Shown here one piece after another: positions 2,674-46,041 of a DNA stretch of 64,000 bases. Every line of letters starts with the position of its first letter. Within the stretch, counting starts at the first letter, position 1. The notes beneath the pieces were generated by a model. That model did no database searches and was not told the origin of the DNA. It saw only the letters and a program-made list of their open reading frames with translations. This DNA is from Microbacterium sp. 8M. Its GTDB lineage: Bacteria > Actinomycetota > Actinomycetes > Actinomycetales > Microbacteriaceae. Made by a program: the position numbers and the translations under genes. The DNA lies in the NCBI RefSeq assembly GCF_902506375.1, contig NZ_LR733284.1, forward strand, positions 3,100,222 through 3,164,221, given 5' to 3'.

Positions 2674-3666
2674 TCAGCTCAGACCCGAATAGACGTGCAG
2701 GCCCTTGAAGAACAGGTTCACGATGGTGAAGTTGAACAGCACCGCCGCGAAGCCCACGATCGAGAGCCACGCCGAGCGGGATCCGCGCCAGCCGCGCGTG
2801 GCACGCGCGTGGATGTAGCCGGCGTAGAGCACCCAGATGATGAACGTCCAGGTCTCCTTGGTGTCGAAGCCCCAGTACCGGCCCCAGGCGTCGTTGGCCC
2901 AGATGGATCCGGCGATCAGCGTGAACGTCCACAGGATGAATCCGACCGTCGCGAACCGGTAGGCGAGGCTCTCGAGCCGGTCGGCGGTGGGGAGCGTCGC
3001 GAGGAAGCGCGGGCCGGGCTTGGCGGCTTCGGCGAGGATCCGGGACTCGCGGCGAGCCTGCATCAGCTGGAAGACGCTCAGCGCGAAGGCCAGCGCGAAG
3101 AACGCCGTGCCGAGCGAGGCGACGAACACGTGGATCACGAGCCACACGCTCTTCAGCGGATCCGCCAGCGGCACGACCTGCGTGTAGAAGCCCGTGGCCG
3201 CGCCGCCGAGCAGCACCACGACCAGGCCCACGATGAAGGTGCCGAGGTACTTCAGGTCGAACCAGATGTTCACGCCGAGGTACACCGCGACGATCAGCAC
3301 GGTTCCCGTCATCGAGAACTCGTACATGTTCGACCACGGCACCCGACCCGCGGCGATCCCGCGCAGCACCACCCCGGCGAGGTGGAAGAGGAAGCCGAGC
3401 GTGGTGAGCGCGGTGCCGATGCGCGCCATGACGTAGCGCGGTGCGGCGGCGGGCGCGACATCCGCGCTCGGGCCCGATGCGGTGCCGGGAGTCCGGGCGG
3501 AACCGCCCACGGAGGCCCCGACGAGCTCGCGCTCGGGGACCGCGGCCTTCGCGTCCGCGGCCAGCTGCGAGCGCCGGGAGAGATCGAGCGCGTAGGCGAT
3601 GAACGCAGCCGCGTAGATCGCGACGGCGGTCCAGATCGTCAGGATCGACATCGAGTCGAAGTTCAT
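2674..3666 (-). CDS. ccsB: Cytochrome c biogenesis protein CcsB (CcsA/ResC-type heme handling subunit)
   Basis: A 330-residue membrane protein of the CcsA/ResC family. With ResB it forms the System II synthetase that exports heme and ligates it to CXXCH apocytochromes on the outer face of the membrane. The Trp-rich heme-binding (WWD-type) signature WGRYWGFDTKETW is present near residue 265, with candidate heme-ligand histidines before and after it (HLAG, HVFV, IHAR). The N-terminal ~100 residues hold one membrane segment and a low-complexity linker. It starts ten bases after the resB stop. A TAGGCT box six bases before the ATG, overlapping the resB stop codon, could give it its own leaderless transcript. 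Confidence 0.92.
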   Translation of the reverse strand: MNFDSMSILTIWTAVAIYAAAFIAYALDLSRRSQLAADAKAAVPERELVGASVGGSARTPGTASGPSADVAPAAAPRYVMARIGTALTTLGFLFHLAGVVLRGIAAGRVPWSNMYEFSMTGTVLIVAVYLGVNIWFDLKYLGTFIVGLVVVLLGGAATGFYTQVVPLADPLKSVWLVIHVFVASLGTAFFALAFALSVFQLMQARRESRILAEAAKPGPRFLATLPTADRLESLAYRFATVGFILWTFTLIAGSIWANDAWGRYWGFDTKETWTFIIWVLYAGYIHARATRGWRGSRSAWLSIVGFAAVLFNFTIVNLFFKGLHVYSGLS

Positions 3667-3714
3667 GGTGTCAGCCTACTTCCGCGGTTTTCCGCTGTCA
3701 TCGGGCTCGTAGCC

Positions 3715-3778
3715 GGTCGCTGAGCGCGTCGAAGCGCCCGCGGCTCCGGGCCGGGTCCCTTCGACGGGCTCAGGGACC
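3715..3778. repeat. Inverted pair of REP-like elements inside the resB C-terminal coding region
   Basis: 3715-3736 (GGTCGCTGAG... type) and 3757-3778 (its inverted relative, containing TTCGACGGGCTCAGGGACC) can form a long stem. They belong to a family also seen at 5695-5716, 22746-22770, 24677-24735 and 56537-56580. Here they encode the PEPVEG and STRSATG peptides of the ResB tail. Confidence 0.75.
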
Positions 3779-5077
3779 GACGCGTCCTCGGCCGCCGCCG
3801 TGGTGCCCGCGGCGTCGAGCAGCCTCGCGTGCCCGTCGCGCAGGTCGTTCACGGCCGCGGCGAGGGTCGGATCCTCGCCGCGCGCGAGTCCGGCGTACTC
3901 CAGGTGCACGGCCCCGTCGACGACGGCGGCCTTCACCCACATCCGGCGGCGCGGCACGAACAGCGCCAGCACGAGTCCGAGCACGGCGAGCGCCGCGAAC
4001 ACGAGCACCCACTGCTCGGAGGGGTCGTGGTGGATCTGCAGCGACACGTAGCGCTTCACCGACTGCGCGTAGTCCTTCGCGCCCTGCGGCGCCTCGTTCT
4101 CGAACGTGATGGTGCCCATGCCGTTCGGCAGCGCGGTGGTCTCCCCCGGCGCCAGCTCGATCGGCTTCACGCCGGTCTTGCCGCCGGTGAGCTGGGTCAT
4201 CCCGGCCGTGTCGAGCACGTACACCGATCGGGGCGTGCCGTCATCGATGCCCAGGTCTCCTGCGTACACGTTGAGCGTGAGCGTCGGGTTGATCAGGGCC
4301 GGATAGACCGATGTGAGCGCGCCGGTCGTCAGCGGCGCAGCGGTCGGATAGAAGAAGCCCTGAAGGCCGAGCTGCTGCGGCAGCCCGTCGGTGACCTTGA
4401 CGATCCCGATCGACATCATCGTGCTGTTGTTCTGCGGCAGGAACGGGACGGAGTCGTGGTAGACGACCTCGCCCTTCGCGTTCTTCACCGTGATCGTCGG
4501 CGCATAGCCGTTGCCGAGCAGGTAGACCCGGTCTCCCGCGATGCCGAGGGGATGGTTGACCCGCACCGACGCGTCGTGCGGCTTCTGGCCCGGCTCCGAG
4601 ACGGTGACGTTCGCGGAGAAGTCGCCGGCGAGACCCGAGGACGGGCTGCCCTGCTCGAACGGCTGATACGTGACGTCGAACGAGTCCAGCGTCATCCGGT
4701 AGGGCGCCAGCGCGTCATCGGAGACGAACCGGCCGCGGTTCATCGACGAGTAGTCCAGCAGCGTGTTCACGAAGCTCGTGCCCTGCACGACCACCCGCTG
4801 CCCGGTGTACGCGAAGCTGCCGCCCACCCCGACGGAGATCAGCACGCCGACGAGGGCGAGGTGGAACAGCAGGTTGCCGGTCTCCCGGGCGTATCCGCGC
4901 TCGGCCGACACCGAGAAGCCGCGCTTGTCGTCGTAGCGCTCCACGCGGTAGCGCAGCGCGCGCAGCTGCTTCTCCGCGATCGCGATCGCCTCGGCGGCGG
5001 CCGCCTGCGCATCGGATCCGGAGACCGTCCGCACGACCCGGCGGTGATCGTCGAGCCGGGACAGGTGCACGGGGGTG

Positions 5078-5307
5078 CGGGGTGGGCGGCAGCTTCGCGT
5101 ACACCGGGCAGCGGGTGGTCGTGCAGGGCACGAGCTTCGTGAACACGCTGCTGGACTACTCGTCGATGAACCGCGGCCGGGCGTGGAGCGCTACGACGAC
5201 AAGCGCGGCTTCTCGGTGTCGGCCGAGCGCGGATACGCCCGGGAGACCGGCAACCTGCTGTTCCACCTCGCCCTCGTCGGCGTGCTGATCTCCGTCGGGG
5301 TGGGCGG
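5078..5307. repeat. Circularly permuted inverted duplication of resB sequence
   Basis: 5078-5180 is the exact reverse complement of 4729-4831, and 5181-5307 is the exact reverse complement of 4820-4946. Together they equal the inverted 218-bp segment 4729-4946, cut open at a 12-bp sequence and rejoined end to end, flanked by that 12-mer as a direct repeat. I found no mismatch over the whole length. Confidence 0.95.
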
Positions 5308-5694
5308 GAGCGCAGCGCCTTGAAGTGGTGCTTAATGCGCGGGATCACGCAGCCGACCAGCGACAGGAACAGCAGCAGGTAGATCGCCGAGAACCACGCC
5401 GACAGGTAGACATCGAACAGCTGCAGCGAATCCATGATCGGGAACAGGTCCGGATGGTCGACCTTGTACTGCGTGACGCCGTTCGGATCCGCCATCCGCT
5501 GCGGGAAGATCGAGCCGGGGATCGCCGCGATCGCGAGGATGAGCAGCAGGACGAGGGCCGTCCGCATGCTGGTCAGCTGCCGCCAGCCCCAGCGCAGCCA
5601 GCCGACCACCCCGAGGCGGGGCGATTCGATGCCGTCGCCGGATCCGTCGACGTGGTCGCTGGGGCGCAGCGGATCCGTCGCGCGGTCCTCGGCC

Positions 5695-5716
5695 GGTCGC
5701 TGAGCCTGTCGAAGCG
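5695..5716. repeat. REP-like element inside the resB N-terminal coding region
   Basis: A copy of GGTCGCTGAGCCTGTCGAAG on the plus strand. On the coding strand it gives the LRQAQRP peptide, which interrupts the otherwise charged N-terminal tail of ResB. Confidence 0.75.
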
Positions 5717-5775
5717 TCTTCGGGTCGTTCTTCTTCACGTTCGGCCCCTGCGGGTCTCGGAGGGTCGCGGACTGG

Positions 5776-6537
5776 TCAGAGCGGGAGTTCGACACTGCCG
5801 ACCACCGCCCCGATGCTCGACATGATCGCCTTCCAGATCCCGGTGACCATGAGCAGTCCCAGCACGATGAGCAGTGCGCCGCCGACGATGTTCACGACGC
5901 GCACGTGGCGGCGCAGGAACGACACCGACCGGGTCGCCCAGCCGAAGCCGAGCGCGACGAGCAGGAACGGCACGCCGAGCCCGAGCGAATAGGCCACGCC
6001 CAGCCACACCGCGCGGCTCACGTCGCCGACGTTCACCGACAGCGCGACGATCGCCGACAGCGTGGGGCTCAGGCACGGGCTCCACCCGATGCCCAGCGCG
6101 ATGCCGAGCAGCGGCGCGCCGATGAGCCCGGCCCGGCCGGAGACGTTCATCCGGATCGTGCGCTGCGCGACGCCGAAGACGCCGATGAAGACGAGGCCCA
6201 TCACGATGATGACCGCGCCGAGCACACGCGTGATCACGTCGCCCCAGCGCAGCAGGAACACGCCTGCGGCGCCGCCGACGACGGCCATGAGGATGAACAC
6301 CACCGTGAAGCCCAGGATGAACAGCAGCACGCCGAGCACCATCTGCCGCCGGGTCGGGGCGTCGGTCGTCCCATCCTGACGCCGCGCGGATCCGCTCACC
6401 GCACCGCCGACGAAGCCGAGATAGCCCGGCACGAGCGGCAGCACGCAGGGCGAGAGGAACGACAGGAGCCCGGCGAGCATGGCGACGGGCACGGCCGCCC
6501 AGAGCGCGCCGGTTCCGACGATGGCGTCGATGTTCAC
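5776..6537 (-). CDS. ccdA: Thiol-disulfide transporter CcdA
   Basis: A 253-residue protein with six membrane segments. It carries electrons from cytoplasmic thioredoxin across the membrane to reduce TlpA/ResA and thereby keep apocytochrome CXXCH cysteines reduced. The two redox-active cysteines lie in SPCVLPLVPGYLG (N-terminal helix, near residue 31) and GWSPCLSPTL (near residue 155), as expected for CcdA. It follows tlpA by 15 bases and overlaps the resB start by 20 bases, so the genes are translationally linked. Confidence 0.95.
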   Translation of the reverse strand: MNIDAIVGTGALWAAVPVAMLAGLLSFLSPCVLPLVPGYLGFVGGAVSGSARRQDGTTDAPTRRQMVLGVLLFILGFTVVFILMAVVGGAAGVFLLRWGDVITRVLGAVIIVMGLVFIGVFGVAQRTIRMNVSGRAGLIGAPLLGIALGIGWSPCLSPTLSAIVALSVNVGDVSRAVWLGVAYSLGLGVPFLLVALGFGWATRSVSFLRRHVRVVNIVGGALLIVLGLLMVTGIWKAIMSSIGAVVGSVELPL

Positions 6538-6552
6538 GACTGGGTGCTCACT

Positions 6553-7230
6553 TCAGTTCTCGTCCAAGGCGTCCTGGACGAGGGTCTCCAGGATCGACGC
6601 GGATCCGATCGGGCCGATCACGCGCGCCGCGACGCGGCCCTGCTTGTCGAGGACGAGGGTGGTCGGGGTGGCCTGGATCGAGGTGACCTCGGCGAAGGCG
6701 AGCTTCGCATCGCCGGTGTTCACGTCGATGATGCTCGGGTAGGTCACGCCGTACTTCTCGTTGAACGCGGTGGCGGTGCCGGGCTGATCGTAGGTGTTGA
6801 CGCCCACGAACGAGACGCCCTTGCCGTCGAACTTCTGCCACACGCTCTGCAGATCCTTCGCCTCCACGCGGCACGGGCCGCAGGCGGCGTACCAGAAGTT
6901 CACGACGGCGACGTCGCCCGCGATGTCCGTGCTGCTGAACTTCTTCCCGTTCTCGAGAGTTCCCCCGAACGTGACCGGCTTGCTGCGGTCGGCGGGCTTG
7001 ATCTCCTCGACGCGCATGCCGTCGGATCCGATGTAGCCCTTGTTGTCGCCGTTGCGGTACTGGTCGGCGACGGGATCGCTCGCGCAGGCGGCGAGGCCGC
7101 CGGCGAGCGCGGCGCCGATCACGATCAGGGCGCCGGCCTTCGCGATGCGCGGGCGGCGGGTGCGGCGTGCCCGCGGACGATCAGCTGCAGTCTCCGGGGG
7201 CGCGGACGGGCGCGACGAACTCAGAGGCAT
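6553..7230 (-). CDS. TlpA/ResA-type thiol-disulfide oxidoreductase lipoprotein
   Basis: A 225-residue protein with an N-terminal signal segment ending in a lipobox (GGLAAC, near residue 50), so it is anchored outside the membrane. A thioredoxin fold follows with the active site WYAACGPCR near residue 117 and the cis-Pro segment QATPTTLV further on. It reduces apocytochrome c cysteines with electrons from CcdA. The ATG at 7230 was chosen because a TAGGAT -10 box lies seven bases upstream; a longer upstream frame exists but covers repeat-rich intergenic DNA. First gene of the tlpA-ccdA-resB-ccsB operon. Confidence 0.92.
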   Translation of the reverse strand: MPLSSSRPSAPPETAADRPRARRTRRPRIAKAGALIVIGAALAGGLAACASDPVADQYRNGDNKGYIGSDGMRVEEIKPADRSKPVTFGGTLENGKKFSSTDIAGDVAVVNFWYAACGPCRVEAKDLQSVWQKFDGKGVSFVGVNTYDQPGTATAFNEKYGVTYPSIIDVNTGDAKLAFAEVTSIQATPTTLVLDKQGRVAARVIGPIGSASILETLVQDALDEN

Positions 7231-7450
7231 GCTCTGAATCCTACGAAAGGACTCTATGCACCCGGTGGGCGCGGCCCGCACCCGCCGCACTCCGTCATCG
7301 CGCCGCGCCGAGCCAGCGCCGCGCCGCGCCGCGCCGCGGTCTCCCGTCGCGCCAGAACAGGCGAACACGCGCACACAGGCGGGTGCTTCCCGCGATCGCC
7401 TGTTCCGGCGCGTTCGCCTGTGCTCACGCGCGCCGTGAGGGCCGAACGGG
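7231..7450. repeat. Intergenic region with GCGCC tandem repeats and AACAGGCGAA-type inverted repeats
   Basis: 7316-7335 holds four GCGCC units. 7357-7366 (ACAGGCGAAC) pairs perfectly with 7412-7421. The 15-mer TCGCCTGTTCCGGCG at 7396-7410 recurs exactly at 38566-38580 in another intergenic region. No gene is seen. The inverted repeats lie 3' of menA and could terminate its transcript; the tlpA -10 box is at 7238-7243. Confidence 0.7.
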
Positions 7451-8452
7451 TCACACGGCCGGCGTGATGAACGCCCAGAGCAGCGCGCCCGCGTACAGCA
7501 GCGTGCCGAGCGAGGTGAGCGCGAGCGCGATCACCAGCTCCATCGGCTTGCGGTACGCCCACACGATCACGAGTGCGGGCAGCACCGCGAGGAGGGCCAG
7601 CAGGCCGACCCACGCGACCGGGTAGAACAGCGCCAGCAGCACGAGCCCCAGGAACGGCAGGATCACGAACAGCGTGTAGAGGACCTGCGTGGCGCGGCGG
7701 CCGATCACGACGGTGAGGGTGCGCTTGCCGACGAGGCGGTCCTGGTCGATGTCGCGGAGGTTGTTGGCCAGCAGCACGGCGCACGCGAACAGGCCGACCG
7801 CGACGGCGCCGATCCACGCCTCCTGCGGCAGCTTCAGCGACTGCACCCACGTCGTGCCGAGCGTGGCGACCAGGCCGAAGAACACGAAGACGAAGACCTC
7901 GCCGAGCGCGTTGTAGCCGTACGGGCGCTTGCCCCCGGTGTAGAACCACGCCGCCACGATGCACACCGCGCCGACCGCGATCATCCACCACTGCTGCGTG
8001 CGGATCACGATGCCCAGGCCGGCGATCGCCGCCAGCGCGAAGAACGCGAGGCCGGTGTACAGCACGCTCTTGGCGCTCACCCGGCCCGAGGCGGTGAGCC
8101 GGGCGGGGCCGACCCGGTGCGCGTCGGTGCCGCGCACGCCGTCGCTGTAGTCGTTCGTGAAGTTGACCCCGATCTGCAGGCACACCGCGACAGCGAGGCA
8201 GGCGAGCGCGATCACCCAGTGGAACTGCGGATCGCCGAGGCGTGCCGCGCCGGTGCCGACGAGCACGGGCGCGACGGCGAGCGGCAGGGTGCGCGGGCGG
8301 GCGGCGCCGATCCAGGCCCCGAGCGTGACCGGGGGCAGCTGCTCCACCGGGCGCTTCGCCGGGTTGCCGGACTTTCCGCGCGTCGCCGGGCGCGCGGACG
8401 CGGTCTTCTTGCTCTTGCCGTTCTTGGTGCGGTTCGTGTTGCGGTTCGCCAC
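7451..8452 (-). CDS. menA: 1,4-dihydroxy-2-naphthoate polyprenyltransferase MenA
   Basis: A 333-residue UbiA-superfamily membrane prenyltransferase. It attaches the polyprenyl tail to 1,4-dihydroxy-2-naphthoate to give demethylmenaquinone, the quinone used by the respiratory chain of these bacteria. The two Asp-rich prenyl-diphosphate/Mg binding motifs are visible: NFTNDYSDGVRGTD near residue 110 and NNLRDIDQDRLVGKRT near residue 220. Eight or nine membrane segments follow a Lys/Asn-rich N-terminal tail. The GTG start at 8452 is supported by a TAGGAT box six bases upstream (leaderless). Its position beside the cytochrome c genes groups respiratory functions. Confidence 0.95.
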   Translation of the reverse strand: MANRNTNRTKNGKSKKTASARPATRGKSGNPAKRPVEQLPPVTLGAWIGAARPRTLPLAVAPVLVGTGAARLGDPQFHWVIALACLAVAVCLQIGVNFTNDYSDGVRGTDAHRVGPARLTASGRVSAKSVLYTGLAFFALAAIAGLGIVIRTQQWWMIAVGAVCIVAAWFYTGGKRPYGYNALGEVFVFVFFGLVATLGTTWVQSLKLPQEAWIGAVAVGLFACAVLLANNLRDIDQDRLVGKRTLTVVIGRRATQVLYTLFVILPFLGLVLLALFYPVAWVGLLALLAVLPALVIVWAYRKPMELVIALALTSLGTLLYAGALLWAFITPAV

Positions 8453-39732: not shown

Positions 39733-40662
39733 TCAGTCCGGGACGACGGGGATGGACCCGGTGAGCGGCGACGGGGGCTCCTCGTCACGGCCCGCGCCCT
39801 GGCGGCGCGCCCCGGCGGTCACCCCGATGCTCGCGACCACGACGAGGGCGATCGCGACCAGCCGCAGCGGAGACGCGTGCTGGCCCAGCACGAGCAGGCC
39901 GGCGAGCGTCGCGAAGACCGGCTCCAGGCTGAGCAGGATCCCGAAGACCCGCTGCGGCAGCCGGCGCAGGGCCGCGAGCTCCAGGATGTACGGGATGACC
40001 GAGGCGAGCAGGGCGGTGAGGGCGGCGAGTCCGAGCACGCGCGGATCCCCCACCGCGGTGATGGCGGCCGGCACGCCGAACGGCAGCAGCAGCACCGCCG
40101 CGACCGCGAGCGCCACGGCCAGCCCTTCCGTGCCCGTGGTGAGCGCGCCGACACGGGTGCTCATCCGGATGTACATGACCCAGAACGCCGCCGCGACGAG
40201 GGCGAACAGGACGCCCATCGGATCGAGCGCCGCCGTACCGGTCAGCCCGTCCACGCCGAGCAGCGCCATCCCGACGAGTGCGACGCCCACCCAGATCGCG
40301 TCGGCGAGGCGGCGGGTGAGCACGGCCGCCAGCACGAGCGGCCCGAGGAACTCGATCGCGACGGCCGGACCGATCGGGATCCGGTCGATCGCCGCGTAGA
40401 AGCAGCCGTTCATGGCGGCCAGCGAGATGCCGAACAGCACCGCGGCCGTCCACTGCCGCCGGTTCCACCGGCTCAGCCGCGGACGGGCGATGAGCAGCAC
40501 GACGATCGCGGCGATGAGCACGCGCAGCGCCGTGACGCCCCACGATCCGAGCGCCGGGAAGATCGTCGTCGCCACGGATGCGCCGAACGGGAGCGAGAAG
40601 CAGGATCCGACGACGAGCAGCACCCCGAGCGCGGGCTGCTGCCGCGGTTCCTGAGAAGTCAC
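39733..40662 (-). CDS. EamA family (RhtA-like) exporter
   Basis: A 309-residue DMT-superfamily protein with ten membrane helices in two EamA repeats. The PIGPAVAIEFLGPLVLAAVL segment and the ALxRLPQRVFGILLSLEPVFA segment match the RhtA threonine/homoserine exporter subgroup. The likely role is efflux of an amino acid or similar metabolite. GTG start at 40662 with GGAGGG just upstream. Confidence 0.87.
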   Translation of the reverse strand: MTSQEPRQQPALGVLLVVGSCFSLPFGASVATTIFPALGSWGVTALRVLIAAIVVLLIARPRLSRWNRRQWTAAVLFGISLAAMNGCFYAAIDRIPIGPAVAIEFLGPLVLAAVLTRRLADAIWVGVALVGMALLGVDGLTGTAALDPMGVLFALVAAAFWVMYIRMSTRVGALTTGTEGLAVALAVAAVLLLPFGVPAAITAVGDPRVLGLAALTALLASVIPYILELAALRRLPQRVFGILLSLEPVFATLAGLLVLGQHASPLRLVAIALVVVASIGVTAGARRQGAGRDEEPPSPLTGSIPVVPD

Positions 40663-40978
40663 CCCTCCAGCCTGGCACGGACCGGGGCATCGCCCGCATC
40701 CGCGCTCCTCGCTCGCCCCTCCTGTCGCTCAGATCCTGTCGCTCAGGTCCTCTCGCTCAGGTCCTCTCTCAGGTCCTCTCCCTCAGTTCCTCTCCCTCAG
40801 TTCCTCTCCCTCAGGTCCTCTCTCAGGTCCTCTCTCAGTTCCTCTCGCTCAGGTCGCAAAAACGGTCGCAAAAAGGCGCCCGGAAGCGCAGATATTGCGA
40901 CCTGAACGGGATGTGCGCCTCAGGGCGGCGCGCGCCCTCAGCAGCGGGCGTGCGCCTCCAACAGCGGGCGTGCGCGCC
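40663..40978. repeat. Intergenic region with a CTCAGGTCCTCTC tandem array and a 10-bp inverted repeat
   Basis: 40729-40848 contains nine units of 12 or 14 bases of the type TCAGGTCCTCTCGC, with G/T and C/G variants. CAGGTCGCAA (40850-40859) pairs perfectly with 40895-40904, enclosing two GGTCGCAAAAA copies. CAGCGGGCGTGCGC is repeated twice near 40940-40975. No gene is seen on either strand; the strand carrying the array is almost pure pyrimidine outside the CAG. Confidence 0.75.
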
Positions 40979-42136
40979 TCAGCGGAGCGTGAGGCCGATC
41001 CGCAGCGGCGCGCCGGGTGCGGCCGCCTCGACGAGGGCGGCGTCCACCGCTGCCAGCGGATGCACGGCGCCCACGGCATCGGCGAACGGATACGCACGCC
41101 CTCGCCCGCCCATGAACGCGGCTGCGGCCTGCAGCTCGGCGCCCGTGTAGTTGTGCACCCCCGCGACCGCGATGAGGCCGCGCACGATGCGCTCGGCGTC
41201 GAGGGGCACCGGCTCCGCCGGGAAGACGCTGCCGAGCAGCACCACCGCACCACCCACGTCGACGGCGTCGAGCGCCGCGCGCACGGCGTGCCCCGATGCC
41301 TCCACCACGAGGTCGAACCCCTCCTCCGCGACGTCGTCCGGGGCGAGCGCGGCGAGCCCGAACCGCTCGGCGAACGCGCGCCGGCCCGGATCCGGATCCA
41401 CGATGCGCACCTGCCCGCCCAGCTCAGCGGCGATCACAGCCGCCGTCAGCCCGACCAGCCCCGCGCCGAGTACGAGCACGCGCTCGCACGCGAGCACGGC
41501 GGTCTCCTCCGAGCCGGCGGCAGCCGGATCCGGACGGCCGCGGCCGCGCAGCGCGGCGCCCCGCGCGATGCCGGCCCAGGCCGTCGCGGTCGCACACGAG
41601 ACCGGTGCCAGGGCGGCCGCGGGGAGCGCCTCCGGCACGCGCACGATCGCCGTCCCCTCCCGCAGGTGCACGTGACCGGCGAACCCGCCGGTGAGCTCCC
41701 AGCGCGGTTCGATGCGCGCGTGCCCGTACTTCGCGAGCGTCCGGCACTTCTGGCTGAGGCCTGCCAGGCAGCGGTCGCAGTGCCCGCAGGAGACGGTCAC
41801 CGACCAGACCACCCGGTCGCCGGCGTGCAGCTCCGCACCGTCCACGGCGCGCGCGCCCTCGTCGCCGATCGCGATGATCCGGCCGACGCTCTCGTGTCCG
41901 AGGATGAGCGGTGCCGGAGCGTGGCGTCGTCCCTGCACGGTGTGGATGTCGGATCCGCAGATCGTCGACATCTCCACGGCGATCAGCACGTCGTGCCGGC
42001 CGAGTGCCACGCCCGGAACGGCGAGCACCTCGTGCGGGATGCCGACGCCGAGCCACGCCATCGCGACGGCGGCGGGCCGCAGGGGCACGTCGTGCCGGTG
42101 CACTCCCTCGGCGGGGCGGACCAGGGCCGCGCGCAC
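40979..42136 (-). CDS. Zinc-dependent alcohol dehydrogenase, phosphonate-cluster type
   Basis: A 385-residue medium-chain dehydrogenase. Catalytic zinc ligands are in STICGSDIH (near residue 60) and LGHESVG (near 80); the structural zinc cysteines are in CGHCDRCLAGLSQKC (near 117-131); the NAD-binding loop is VLVLGAGLVGLTAAV near 245. It corresponds to the subfamily proposed to act in phosphonate catabolism (TIGR03366-like). It starts one base after the HAD gene ends and is last in the phn operon, so it may reduce or oxidise the aldehyde released after C-P cleavage. Confidence 0.85.
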   Translation of the reverse strand: MRAALVRPAEGVHRHDVPLRPAAVAMAWLGVGIPHEVLAVPGVALGRHDVLIAVEMSTICGSDIHTVQGRRHAPAPLILGHESVGRIIAIGDEGARAVDGAELHAGDRVVWSVTVSCGHCDRCLAGLSQKCRTLAKYGHARIEPRWELTGGFAGHVHLREGTAIVRVPEALPAAALAPVSCATATAWAGIARGAALRGRGRPDPAAAGSEETAVLACERVLVLGAGLVGLTAAVIAAELGGQVRIVDPDPGRRAFAERFGLAALAPDDVAEEGFDLVVEASGHAVRAALDAVDVGGAVVLLGSVFPAEPVPLDAERIVRGLIAVAGVHNYTGAELQAAAAFMGGRGRAYPFADAVGAVHPLAAVDAALVEAAAPGAPLRIGLTLR

Positions 42137-42137
42137 G

Positions 42138-42860
42138 TCAGCCCGCCGCGCTCGGCGTCAGGGCGGGGACGAGCCCACGCTCGGCGAGCACCGCGGCCAA
42201 GGCCGTCACGTCGGGGATCACCGCGTCGGGTTCCGCCGCTGCGAGCGCGGCCGCGTCGTGCGCTCCGCTCAGTACGCCGGCCACGAACCCGGCGCCGGCC
42301 CTGCGACCGGATTCCACGTCGCTGACGGTGTCCCCGACGACGGCCACCGCCCGCACCGACGTCGCGCCCGCGCGCAGCAATGCGGTGAGCACGAGGTCGG
42401 GCGCCGGCCGGCCGCGTCCTGCGTCCACCGGGGAGAGCGCCCCGTCGACGAGGTCATGCCAGCCCAGGGCATCCAGCAGCGCGTCGCGGGTGACGGGGGC
42501 GAAGCCGGTGGTCAGCCACACCTTGAGCCCCGCGGCTCGCAGCGCACGGATGGCATCCGCGGCGCCCGGGATCTCCGTCGCCCCCTGCTCGGCCACGATC
42601 TCGGCGTAGGCGGCCTCGAACTGGGCGGTCGCCCGTTCCGCGGCGGCGACGTCGCCGCCGGCGAGGTGCGTGAACACGTCGATCTTCGACTGCCCCATGG
42701 TGTCGCGCACGTACTGCAGCGCGTCGTCCCCGCCGATGCGCGCGGCGACACCGGTGCGCTCGGCGGCGCGCTGGAACGCCTGCTCCACGACGCCGTCGTC
42801 GAGCACGGTGGTGCCCGCCATGTCGAGCACGACCAGTTCGATCGGGGTGTGCGGGCTCAT
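42138..42860 (-). CDS. Phosphonatase-like HAD hydrolase
   Basis: A 240-residue HAD-IA enzyme. The nucleophile motif is LDMAGTTV (Asp13) with Ala where ordinary HAD phosphatases have the second Asp, exactly as in phosphonoacetaldehyde hydrolase (PhnX). Lys59 in TMGQSKIDVF aligns with the Schiff-base lysine of PhnX (MGxxKID). The acidic loop VVGDTVSDVESG is near residue 175. Together these support cleavage of the C-P bond of a phosphono-aldehyde. Start overlaps the FAD enzyme stop (ATGA). The family is the phosphonatase-like TIGR03351 group; the true substrate is unproven. Confidence 0.87.
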   Translation of the reverse strand: MSPHTPIELVVLDMAGTTVLDDGVVEQAFQRAAERTGVAARIGGDDALQYVRDTMGQSKIDVFTHLAGGDVAAAERATAQFEAAYAEIVAEQGATEIPGAADAIRALRAAGLKVWLTTGFAPVTRDALLDALGWHDLVDGALSPVDAGRGRPAPDLVLTALLRAGATSVRAVAVVGDTVSDVESGRRAGAGFVAGVLSGAHDAAALAAAEPDAVIPDVTALAAVLAERGLVPALTPSAAG

Positions 42861-44299
42861 GCGTTCTCCTCCTGTGCGATGCCGCCGGCGGTGGCGGACG
42901 TTCCGATGCCGCCGGCGGTGGCGGGCTGTGCGATGCCGCCGGCGGTGGCGGACGTTCCGATGCCGCCGGCGGTGGCGGGCTGTGCGAAGCCGCCGGCGGT
43001 GGCGGACGTTCCGATGCCGCCGGCGGTGGCGGGCTGTGCGAAGCCGCCGGCGGTGGCGGGCGATCCGATGCCGCCGGCGGTGGCGGACGTGTGCGGGGCT
43101 GCGGATCCGACGATCGATGCGGATCCGGGTGCGGATTCTGCCGCGTCCCAGCCGAAGACGCGCGACGTCTCGAGCTCGGCGAGGCCGAGCCCCGTGGTCA
43201 TGCCGATGCCCGTGGTGGCGGCGAGCGCGAGCACGCGCGGTGCGACCTCCTCGACGAGGAACTCCGAGCCGGCTGCGGCATAGACGCCCTGCCAGCGCTC
43301 CAGCACGCGGATGTCGCGCACGTCGAAGAGCGCCTCCGCCTCGGAGAGGAACGCGTCGAAGGCCGCTTCCGGCTGGAACGGGCCCGGCTGCACGGCCTTG
43401 TGGTGCGAGTCGCCCACGAGCAGAGTCCCGTCGGGGAGCTGCGTGTACATCTGGTTCAGGTCGAGCGCGGCGAGCTCCGGCCGCTCGGCGTGCAGCCGCT
43501 CGCGCAGCGCCGTCGCCGACCGGAGCTCCGCGAACCGGCGGTAGCGCACGAGCGACCAGCCCGTGAGCAGCGGAGCCGACAGCGGCGCCCGCAGGTCGGC
43601 GGAGACGCGCATCATGTCCAGGGCGCAGCGGATGACGCCGGCGCGCTCCGCGACCTCGGGCAGCAGCTGGTCCAGGTCGTGGTTGACCGCGACGACCACG
43701 TGGTCGGCCGCGACGTCGCCCCGGGTGGTCCGCACCACGCCGGTGCGCACGGCGGTGACGGCGGTGCGGAAGCGGAACTCCACGCCGAGAGCGACCAGGT
43801 GGCGCACGATCGCGCCCGCGGCCTCGCGCGGGTTCACCTGCAGGTCGCCGAGCACGTGCGCGCCGCCCCGCGCCACGTCCGACCGCACGGGGGCGAGCGC
43901 GGCGATCTCGGCGGCGGTGAGCAGCCGGATGCCCTCCTCGCCGCGGGCGGACTCGGCATCCGCCGCCTCCCCCAGAAGCGCGAGCTCGTCGTCGGCGCGG
44001 GCGACCACCAGCGTGCCGCTCTCCCGCACCCAGAAGCCGGCGTCGGCGGCGAGGCGCAGCCACAGCGCCCTGGAGGCCTCGCCGTACGCACGTGCGGGCC
44101 CGTCCTGGGCGCCGATGCAGAGGTGCCCGAAGTTGCGGATCGTCGCGCCCACCGGGCGGTCGGTGCGATCCACCACGACCACGCGCAGGCCGCGGCGCAC
44201 GGCCGCATAAGCCGCGCCGAGTCCGACGATCCCGGATCCGACGACCGCGACGTCGAGGCGGTCGCGCACGGGGCACAGCCCCGAGTCGAACGCGCTCAT
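42857..44299 (-). CDS. FAD-dependent oxidoreductase (phosphonate-cluster, TIGR03364-like) with a repeat-extended C-terminus
   Basis: A 480-residue DAO-superfamily flavoenzyme. The FAD loop is VAVVGSGIVGLGAAYA near residue 20, and TIRNFGHLCIG follows near 55. The family normally ends about residue 385-395 (TTGIGMTTGLGLAELETS); here ~85 further residues consist mainly of eight copies of a 9-residue ATAGG(I/F)(G/A)xx repeat. It probably oxidises the C-N bond of an aminoalkylphosphonate to yield the aldehyde for the neighbouring HAD enzyme. The ATG at 44299 overlaps the phnE end by 4 bases. The catalytic part looks intact; the tail is probably disordered. Confidence 0.87.
   Translation of the reverse strand: MSAFDSGLCPVRDRLDVAVVGSGIVGLGAAYAAVRRGLRVVVVDRTDRPVGATIRNFGHLCIGAQDGPARAYGEASRALWLRLAADAGFWVRESGTLVVARADDELALLGEAADAESARGEEGIRLLTAAEIAALAPVRSDVARGGAHVLGDLQVNPREAAGAIVRHLVALGVEFRFRTAVTAVRTGVVRTTRGDVAADHVVVAVNHDLDQLLPEVAERAGVIRCALDMMRVSADLRAPLSAPLLTGWSLVRYRRFAELRSATALRERLHAERPELAALDLNQMYTQLPDGTLLVGDSHHKAVQPGPFQPEAAFDAFLSEAEALFDVRDIRVLERWQGVYAAAGSEFLVEEVAPRVLALAATTGIGMTTGLGLAELETSRVFGWDAAESAPGSASIVGSAAPHTSATAGGIGSPATAGGFAQPATAGGIGTSATAGGFAQPATAGGIGTSATAGGIAQPATAGGIGTSATAGGIAQEENA
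42875..43090. repeat. 27-bp coding minisatellite, eight copies
   Basis: The core GCCGCCGGCGGTGGC begins at 42881, 42908, 42935, 42962, 42989, 43016, 43043 and 43070, an exact 27-bp period with partly alternating variants that give a 54-bp higher-order unit. It keeps the FAD oxidoreductase frame open. Confidence 0.95.
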
Positions 44300-46041
44300 C
44301 GGAAGACCCTCCGCATCCACATCGCCAGTCCCTCCACCACGAGCACCGTGGCGAGGATCATCAGCACGATCGCCGTCACCACCGGGTAGCGCGAGCCCTG
44401 TCCCGCGTTCAGCAGGTAGTAGCCGACCCCGCCGCCACCGACGATGCCGAGGATCGTCGCGGCGCGGATGTTCGTGTCGAGCATGTAGAAGCTGTGCCCG
44501 ATGAGGGCGCGCGTCCCCTGCGGCACGGTCGCGGCAGTGTAGGTCTGCAACCGGGTCGCCCCGACCGCGCGCAGCGCACGCTCCGGCCCGCGGTCGACCT
44601 CCTCGAACGAGTCGGCGATCAGCTTGCCGAGCAGGCCGATCCCGCCGACGGCGAGCGCGACGATGCCGGCGGTCGGCCCGAGCCCGGTGACGACGATGAG
44701 CACGATCGCGAGGATGAGCTCGGGGATGCCGCGGATGCCGACGAGCAGGAATCGGGCGGTCCCGCGCACCGTGCCGTTCGGGGCGACGTTGCGCGCGGCG
44801 AACGATCCGAGCAGCAGCGAGGGCAGCAGCGTGAGCACCGTGGCGGCGAGCGCGATCGCGATCGTGTCGCGCATCGCCCCGAGCATGACCGACGCGTCGT
44901 AGGCGCCGAAGCTCGGCGGCCAGAACTTCGCCGCGGTCTCCGGAATCTTCGCCCACACCGTGAGAAGGTCGCCCCACTGGATCTGACACACCAGCACGCT
45001 GCCGGCGACGATCGCCACGGCGATCCATCCGGCGATCGTGTTGCGGCGGCGCTCGGACGTCCACGGCCGGCGCACCGCGGCGGCCGGCGACGTCGCCCAG
45101 CCGGGTGTGGCGACGCTCCCAGGCGCCGCCGGCGAGGCCGGTGTCCTGGTTCCGAGCAGGCGCGGATGCAGGATCCGATCGATCCACGAACGCGTCTGCG
45201 CGGTCTCGCCGAGCATCGCCCCGCGCACCGCGCTGGAGACGATCTCCATCACGACGCAGAGCACGAAGATCACGAGGGCGATCCCGAGCCCGCGTCCGTA
45301 GTTCAGGGCCTTGAAGGCGTACGACATCTCCAGGCCCAGGCCCGCGACGCCCACATAACCGAGCACGACGCTGCCGCGCAGGTTGATGTCGTTGCGGTGC
45401 AGCACGGTGGCCACCCAGCTGGGCAGCACCTGCGGCAGCACTCCCGCCGTGAACTGCTGCAGCTTCGTGCCGCCGGCGGCGCGGATCGCGAGACGTGGGC
45501 CCTCGTCGATCTGCTCGATCGCGTCCGCGAACATCTTCGAGATCATGCCGATCGAGTGGATCCCGATGGCGAGGATGCCGGGGAGCGTGCCCAGCGAGAA
45601 GATCAGCACGAACGCCATCGCCAGCACGACGTCGGGGATCGAGCGGGTGAGCACGCCGAGGAAGCGGGCGATGCCGCGCCAGACCGGGCCAGGGGTCGTG
45701 TTCGCGGCGGCGAGATAGGCGATGGGCACCGAGAGCACGGCGGCGACCAGGGTGCCGACCAGCACGAGCCCGACCGTGAGGGCGATGAGCCAGAGCAGGT
45801 CGAGCGGGGCAGGGAAGCTCAAGGCCCCCACGCGGGTCATGAAGCGCTGGGCGTTGCCCCAGCTCTGGAACACGCCCGTGAGCGAGAAGCCGCTCTGCAC
45901 GAGCGATGCGATCCCGAGCCCGACGAGCGCGACGAGGGTGAGCGACGCCGCGACCCGCTCGGGCGAGACGCCCGGGCGCGGAGCGCGGGAGAGCAGCCCG
46001 CCGACGTACCCCTCGCGCCGGGGTGCGGCGACCGCGGTCAT
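44296..46041 (-). CDS. phnE: Phosphonate ABC transporter permease, fused double PhnE
   Basis: A 581-residue protein made of two complete BPD_transp_1 permease modules (residues ~60-275 and ~345-575) joined by a Pro/Ala-rich linker. The ATPase-contact (EAA-like) loops read EGPRLAIRAAGGTKLQQF and RGPERALRAVGATRLQTY. In most bacteria two PhnE subunits are separate. The ATG at 46041 overlaps the phnC stop (ATGA). Confidence 0.92.
   Translation of the reverse strand: MTAVAAPRREGYVGGLLSRAPRPGVSPERVAASLTLVALVGLGIASLVQSGFSLTGVFQSWGNAQRFMTRVGALSFPAPLDLLWLIALTVGLVLVGTLVAAVLSVPIAYLAAANTTPGPVWRGIARFLGVLTRSIPDVVLAMAFVLIFSLGTLPGILAIGIHSIGMISKMFADAIEQIDEGPRLAIRAAGGTKLQQFTAGVLPQVLPSWVATVLHRNDINLRGSVVLGYVGVAGLGLEMSYAFKALNYGRGLGIALVIFVLCVVMEIVSSAVRGAMLGETAQTRSWIDRILHPRLLGTRTPASPAAPGSVATPGWATSPAAAVRRPWTSERRRNTIAGWIAVAIVAGSVLVCQIQWGDLLTVWAKIPETAAKFWPPSFGAYDASVMLGAMRDTIAIALAATVLTLLPSLLLGSFAARNVAPNGTVRGTARFLLVGIRGIPELILAIVLIVVTGLGPTAGIVALAVGGIGLLGKLIADSFEEVDRGPERALRAVGATRLQTYTAATVPQGTRALIGHSFYMLDTNIRAATILGIVGGGGVGYYLLNAGQGSRYPVVTAIVLMILATVLVVEGLAMWMRRVFR

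Follow-up and report, generated by a model that had tools for sequence, protein, structure and literature searches.

Several described systems resemble the locus analyzed in this study. Chimeric reads formed at inverted repeats are a library artefact for which the PDSM model has been put forward (PMC10908179); as at our locus, the strand is switched where a short inverted repeat lies, the sequence beyond the repeat is copied in inverted form and mismatches carry the donor bases. In human capture libraries they were seen as soft-clipped reads of low frequency, and the finder used for them counts repeats of at least 8 bp. Circle-mediated duplications (PMC7450558, PMC7188851) share with the locus a rotated block and a closing join that may be free of homology. 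Small inverted triplications, which are described from mutant yeast cells and have also been annotated in cancers, contain an inverted local copy as our locus does, with averages of 148/160/148 bp and 6-bp junctions (PMC13334657), and an inverted local copy is also found in foldback inverted duplications (PMC10622511). A limited search of the literature for bacterial duplications that are both rotated and inverted gave no match that we recognized.

The window, the 64,000-nucleotide stretch of the genome of Microbacterium sp. 8M that was analyzed as a whole, carries resB among other genes of cytochrome c maturation:

2674-3666, minus strand: cytochrome c assembly protein (PF01578), intact, presumably of the CcsA/ResC type
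3676-5077, minus strand: C-terminal part of resB; the ORF 3676-5070 matches positions 107-483 of the Pfam ResB profile
5308-5795, minus strand: N-terminal part of resB, matching positions 1-99 of the Pfam ResB profile
5776-6537, minus strand: DsbD_TM protein (Pfam), intact, which we take to be CcdA-like
6553-7230, minus strand: thioredoxin-like protein (Pfam), intact, presumably of the ResA/TlpA type

The resB gene is the only broken member of this set. A continuous ResB profile (PF05140) in a single frame is absent, the minus-strand match being split between the two parts listed. The intervening insert of 218 bp shifts the frame, as 218 mod 3 = 2: the N-terminal frame as assembled ends at 4839 with 318 amino acids, 162 of which lie ahead of the insert, and an open frame of 464 amino acids beginning with a GTG at 5070 covers the C-terminal part. 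From the GTG at 5795 to 3676 there are 2,120 bases, and subtraction of 218 leaves 633 codons and a stop. The first-pass annotation had held that resB is broken and that removal of the 218 bp restores a gene of 633 codons; the frame shift and the split profile agree with the former and the arithmetic with the latter, if 5795 is the start. A compensating second resB was considered and rejected, because the profile search found none in this genome, which makes the gene single-copy. Among the matches listed, G004, G013, G018, G024, G027 and G032 each show at least two resB-like places, the extra ones being lower-scoring. The genome of the window also has an open and intact frame of 272 residues in which CXXCH occurs twice and which we take to be QcrC. 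The intact state of this cytochrome and of the rest of the operon argues for an event that is very recent or did not take place. The earlier view of the insert as very recent or an artefact is supported. A loss of cytochrome c maturation would follow only from an insert that is present in living cells.

The insert and its donor stretch are arranged as follows:

4729-4946: donor stretch, 218 bp within resB, repeated inverted and rotated in the insert
4820-4831, plus strand: donor 12-mer CCGCCCACCCCG, inverted relative to (reverse complement of) the flanking copies; the rotation opens here
5078-5089, plus strand: flanking 12-mer CGGGGTGGGCGG, first copy; its centre T at 5083 is unusual for the site
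5078-5180, minus strand: left half of the insert, the left strand-exchange junction read backwards
5180-5181: join of the two halves, with no bases in common
5181-5307, minus strand: right half of the insert, the right strand-exchange junction
5296-5307, plus strand: flanking 12-mer CGGGGTGGGCGG, second copy

The left half is the exact reverse complement of 4729-4831 (103 nt, 100%) and the right half that of 4820-4946 (127 nt, 0 mismatches), the right pair extending to 131 nt at 99% (4816-4946 with 5181-5311); between donor and copy there is no base difference. The reverse complement of 4729-4946 is recovered by rotating either 5078-5295 or 5090-5307, so that the description of the insert as an exact, inverted, circularly permuted self-duplication of 218 bp with 12-mer direct repeats at its flanks is borne out by the sequence. 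The inverted copy is far above chance expectation; apart from it, exact inverted pairs in the 64-kb window reach at most 23 nt.

The two inverted 12-mers are separated by 246 bases, whose flipping would generate two junctions, and the two halves of the insert are exactly these junctions. The insert is therefore composed of two strand-exchange junctions between inverted 12-mers, placed back to back. At the 5180/5181 join, 0 bases are in common with the continuation of either side. Two ends that switched strand at the 12-mer, extended by 91 and 115 bases and were then joined would yield the observed sequence, which makes a circle unnecessary. These ends are either DNA ends in the cell or contig ends of the assembly, and the finished sequence does not distinguish between the two. 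Weighing the whole of the evidence, we suggest that the insert is probably an artefact that arose during library preparation and assembly.

The identity of the halves with the flip junctions could also point to a mixed population, in which some cells would carry the 246-bp stretch in flipped form and both orientations would have been stitched together during assembly. The flipped stretch is free of stops in the same register, although this is a weak argument, as two of the three registers are without stops. However, only 2-10 of the 12 bases of the inverted 12-mers match in 90 relatives, by which conserved inverted 12-mers were rejected as a candidate, and there is no recombinase among the Pfam-scanned genes at 2674-8452. 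We regard a mixed population as the least probable of the readings named in this study.

In a comparison with relatives, the insert was found in 0 of 111 related loci (53 named and 58 others, from partly overlapping genomes, 91 being unique by aligned sequence); the nearest aligned relative, L018, is about 87% identical over 4 kb, and none is of the same species. An alignment over the uninterrupted site with no gap within 70 bases was obtained for 106 of the loci; the other five show alignment gaps near the site, none with a match spanning the insert. In G004, G005 and G074 the sequences on either side of the site adjoin each other in register, and the net difference is exactly 218. Across the genus, 363 of 366 genomes were matched (the genome of the window counted; three without a match), and when the best E-value per genome among the matches listed is compared, no match in the other 365 genomes is better than E 5.8e-61, which is the score of a one-sided 155-base match. 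Inheritance of the insert in common with the relatives was rejected on the basis of the 111 loci. An origin as a mobile element or insertion sequence was also rejected: matches elsewhere in the genome do not exceed 52.7 bits, and the plus-strand ORF 5075-5323, which holds the inverted ResB piece, matches only ResB (profile 114-172) and no transposase. A tandem-repeat origin was likewise rejected, only unrelated direct repeats being present.

The bases of the 12-mer bear on how the strands were exchanged. The T at 5083 gives a CCA codon for proline; of the 92 proline codons counted in six gene pieces nearby, 0 are CCA. T occupies this position in 2 of 90 relatives, whereas the matching donor base (A at 4826) is kept in 90 of 91. 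Judged from these base frequencies, the T at 5083 may with moderate confidence have been copied from the donor on both sides, in which case the true match would be about 5 + 6 bases. This reading is no more than moderate because the donor base 4828 (C) is also rare (7 of 91 relatives) and because events are expected where the match is long by chance. With the same moderate confidence, a T copied from the donor disfavours a single reciprocal crossover with a circle; it is neutral as to biology or chimeric reads.

It had been proposed that a 218-bp circle from 4729-4946 integrated by 12-bp homology. The part of this proposal that stands is the geometry, since the order is indeed rotated and the donor ends are joined, as expected from a circular intermediate; the circle itself is unnecessary, and the 12-bp homology may be overstated in view of 5083. 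For segmental duplications in humans, a rotated order has served as the mark of circular intermediates (PMC7450558, PMC7188851); closures were directly adjacent or carried a 1-nt insertion or a 2-bp microhomology (PMC7450558). The same study reports non-tandem copies with microhomologies of 1-2 bp and an absence of short inverted repeats from the breakpoints, whereas our locus has an inverted 12-mer about 250 bp away. Integration would in addition require a free 218-bp circle and recombination on at most 12 bp, and a single crossover would keep the original base in one of the flanks if the T is not ancestral, yet both carry T. Thus, we consider the circle highly improbable.

The right 12-mer lies at a G-rich site:

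5071-5089, plus strand: G-rich stretch which, continued by the bases after 5307, forms a four-run G-quadruplex motif

The four-run motif is present on the plus strand without the insert, whichever base occupies the centre of the 12-mer, and there is no G-quadruplex motif at 5071-5089 as assembled. Motifs of this kind make up 0.28% of the 400 kb sampled from the same genome, in which there are 45 others. A G-quadruplex-like site may cause replication trouble or sequencing dropout.

If the mutation were real, it would be very recent and could have arisen by two-ended copying repair without a circle. The DNA would break at the G-quadruplex-like site, leaving both ends with 3' tails similar to the 12-mer; each tail would be primed on the inverted 12-mer about 250 bp away and copied outward over 91 or 115 nt, and the copied ends would then be joined in a Ku-dependent manner. 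This model predicts both junctions, the rotation and the homology-free join, and copying from the donor would explain the unusual T in both flanking 12-mers. Ku (PF02735, E 5.2e-52) and cytochrome bd subunit I (E 3.8e-157) were found in this genome, and with the latter present the loss of ResB could be survived. Priming by foldback at breaks has been proposed for inverted duplications in yeast (PMC10622511). However, the genome is an unclosed draft, a lone resB is broken amid an otherwise intact pathway, and no second scar was found in the sampled stretches or in 400 kb of relatives. The argument from the T is open to ascertainment bias, because long matches are where such events tend to occur, and donor bases would likewise be copied in chimeric reads from a library (PMC10908179). 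Two-ended repair in the cell is therefore an unlikely explanation, although one with appreciable weight.

Another possibility for a real mutation is serial template switching by one replicating strand, which would leave the right 12-mer for the inverted arm, copy as far as 4946, jump to 4729, proceed to the 12-mer again and then return home. The final sequence would be identical, 12 bases are in common at entry and exit, and template switching is known in both microhomology-primed and short-range forms (PMC2621351, PMC7954356). Yet the path needs an additional backward jump of 218 bases with no homology at 4946/4729, and the general objections to two-ended repair apply to it equally. Such switching appears decidedly unlikely. 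The remaining probability falls to other explanations.

The state of the assembly bears on the interpretation of the insert as an artefact. The assembly is composed of two contigs of 3,681,524 and 26,587 bases, neither of which shows an overlap of its ends; the first 30 bases of the larger one (C2) are absent from its last 6 kb, and the reverse comparison gave no recurrence either. At its start (L146:1-300) C2 is already within a G-rich, repetitive stretch, and assembly may have halted there for that reason. The 418,587 bases taken from this genome hold one single N and one run of 100 Ns, at L128:14076 (C2:434076) and L140:992-1091 (C2:2340992-2341091), whereas there are 0 Ns in 400,000 bases from 20 stretches of relatives, an uneven control because these were chosen as single-contig. 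The assembly is thus unclosed and probably scaffolded, a state in which wrong joins of contig ends can occur, although the Ns may reflect masking.

We also looked for similar scars. Exact inverted pairs within 5 kb do not exceed 27 nt in the 400 kb of the same genome (10.8% of the genome) or 28 nt in 400 kb from the 20 relatives, and a BLAST comparison of the 418,587 bases and the window gave no other inverted pair of at least 50 nt at 92% or more. The longest inverted pair in 117 further loci, which comprise 776,423 bases, many overlapping, mostly from resB neighbourhoods and with six loci from the genome of the window, is 34 nt. The 20-kb stretches around the N sites (L128 and L140, the latter with just 991 bases to the left of its Ns) contain no exact inverted pair of at least 24 nt within 5 kb. 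Recurrence of the scar at other inverted repeats or gaps was thus not seen in this sample, a result that a lone event would also give.

For the artefact, we propose the following course. Low coverage at the G-rich stretch by the right 12-mer would have caused the assembly to break there, and one or a few chimeric reads, strand-switched at 4820-4831 against 5078-5089, would have extended each contig end, adding 91 and 115 inverted bases from the opposite arm. Scaffolding or gap closing would then have butt-joined the two false ends, and resB in the living strain would be uninterrupted like that of the relatives. Some parts of this account were observed directly: the geometry, the absence of the insert in the relatives, the unclosed assembly with Ns and the otherwise intact pathway. 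The use of short reads is presumed by it; the halves of 103 and 127 nt are of short-read size, and their homology-free meeting is what abutting contig ends would give. Each half passes from one arm of the inverted repeat to the opposite strand of the other arm, as a library chimera does. We favour the artefact because of the draft state with Ns, the sizes of the halves, the known chimeras, the G-rich site, the intact pathway, the single-copy resB, the lack of the insert in the relatives and the complete identity of donor and copy.

Some observations stand against the artefact. A 3.68-Mb scaffold could derive from long reads, the Ns could be masking by the operator, and no second scar was found despite the 45 G-quadruplex motifs and 91 inverted pairs of at least 12 bp with loops of 20-400 in the 400 kb. 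An overlap of 12 bases is below what most assemblers accept, so that real chimeric reads would be needed. As to gap closing, GapFiller extends from both contig ends, and its authors report that it closes gaps only near the estimated gap size and adds few misjoins (from 1 to 1 in E. coli and from 12 to 18 in S. coelicolor); in favour of the artefact, the same authors call contig edges "often a source of misassemblies" (PMC3446322).

The window contains other repeats as well. At 42872-43095 there is a 54-bp tandem array (4.1 copies at 97%), from which the minus-strand ORF 42857-45187 derives its repetitive C-terminal tail; this ORF presumably resembles an FAD-dependent oxidoreductase, and we take the adjoining frame to be a phosphonatase-like hydrolase. 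A degenerate CTCAGGTCCTCTC-type array with periods of 14, 26, 40 and 54 bases lies at 40720-40855, between the minus-strand ORFs 39733-40662 and 40979-42136.

Should the insert be an artefact, the genome that represents this species contains a cytochrome c maturation gene that only seems to be broken, and draft assemblies could be scanned for two back-to-back inverted-repeat junctions as a recognizable signature. If it is real, it is a clean case of a circle-free rotated inverted duplication and raises the question of how the strain lives without its sole ResB.

Compared with the known systems, the locus differs from each in its arrangement. The chimeras of the PDSM model are individual reads, whereas here two opposite junctions stand back to back and are fixed in a bacterial assembly. 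The circle-mediated duplications are large, human and non-tandem and, according to PMC7450558, are without short inverted repeats at the breakpoints. Inverted triplications and foldbacks take duplication-inversion-duplication or foldback forms (PMC13334657, PMC10622511); unlike these, the insert in resB is a single rotated inverted copy, 131 bp from its donor, with a homology-free inner join.
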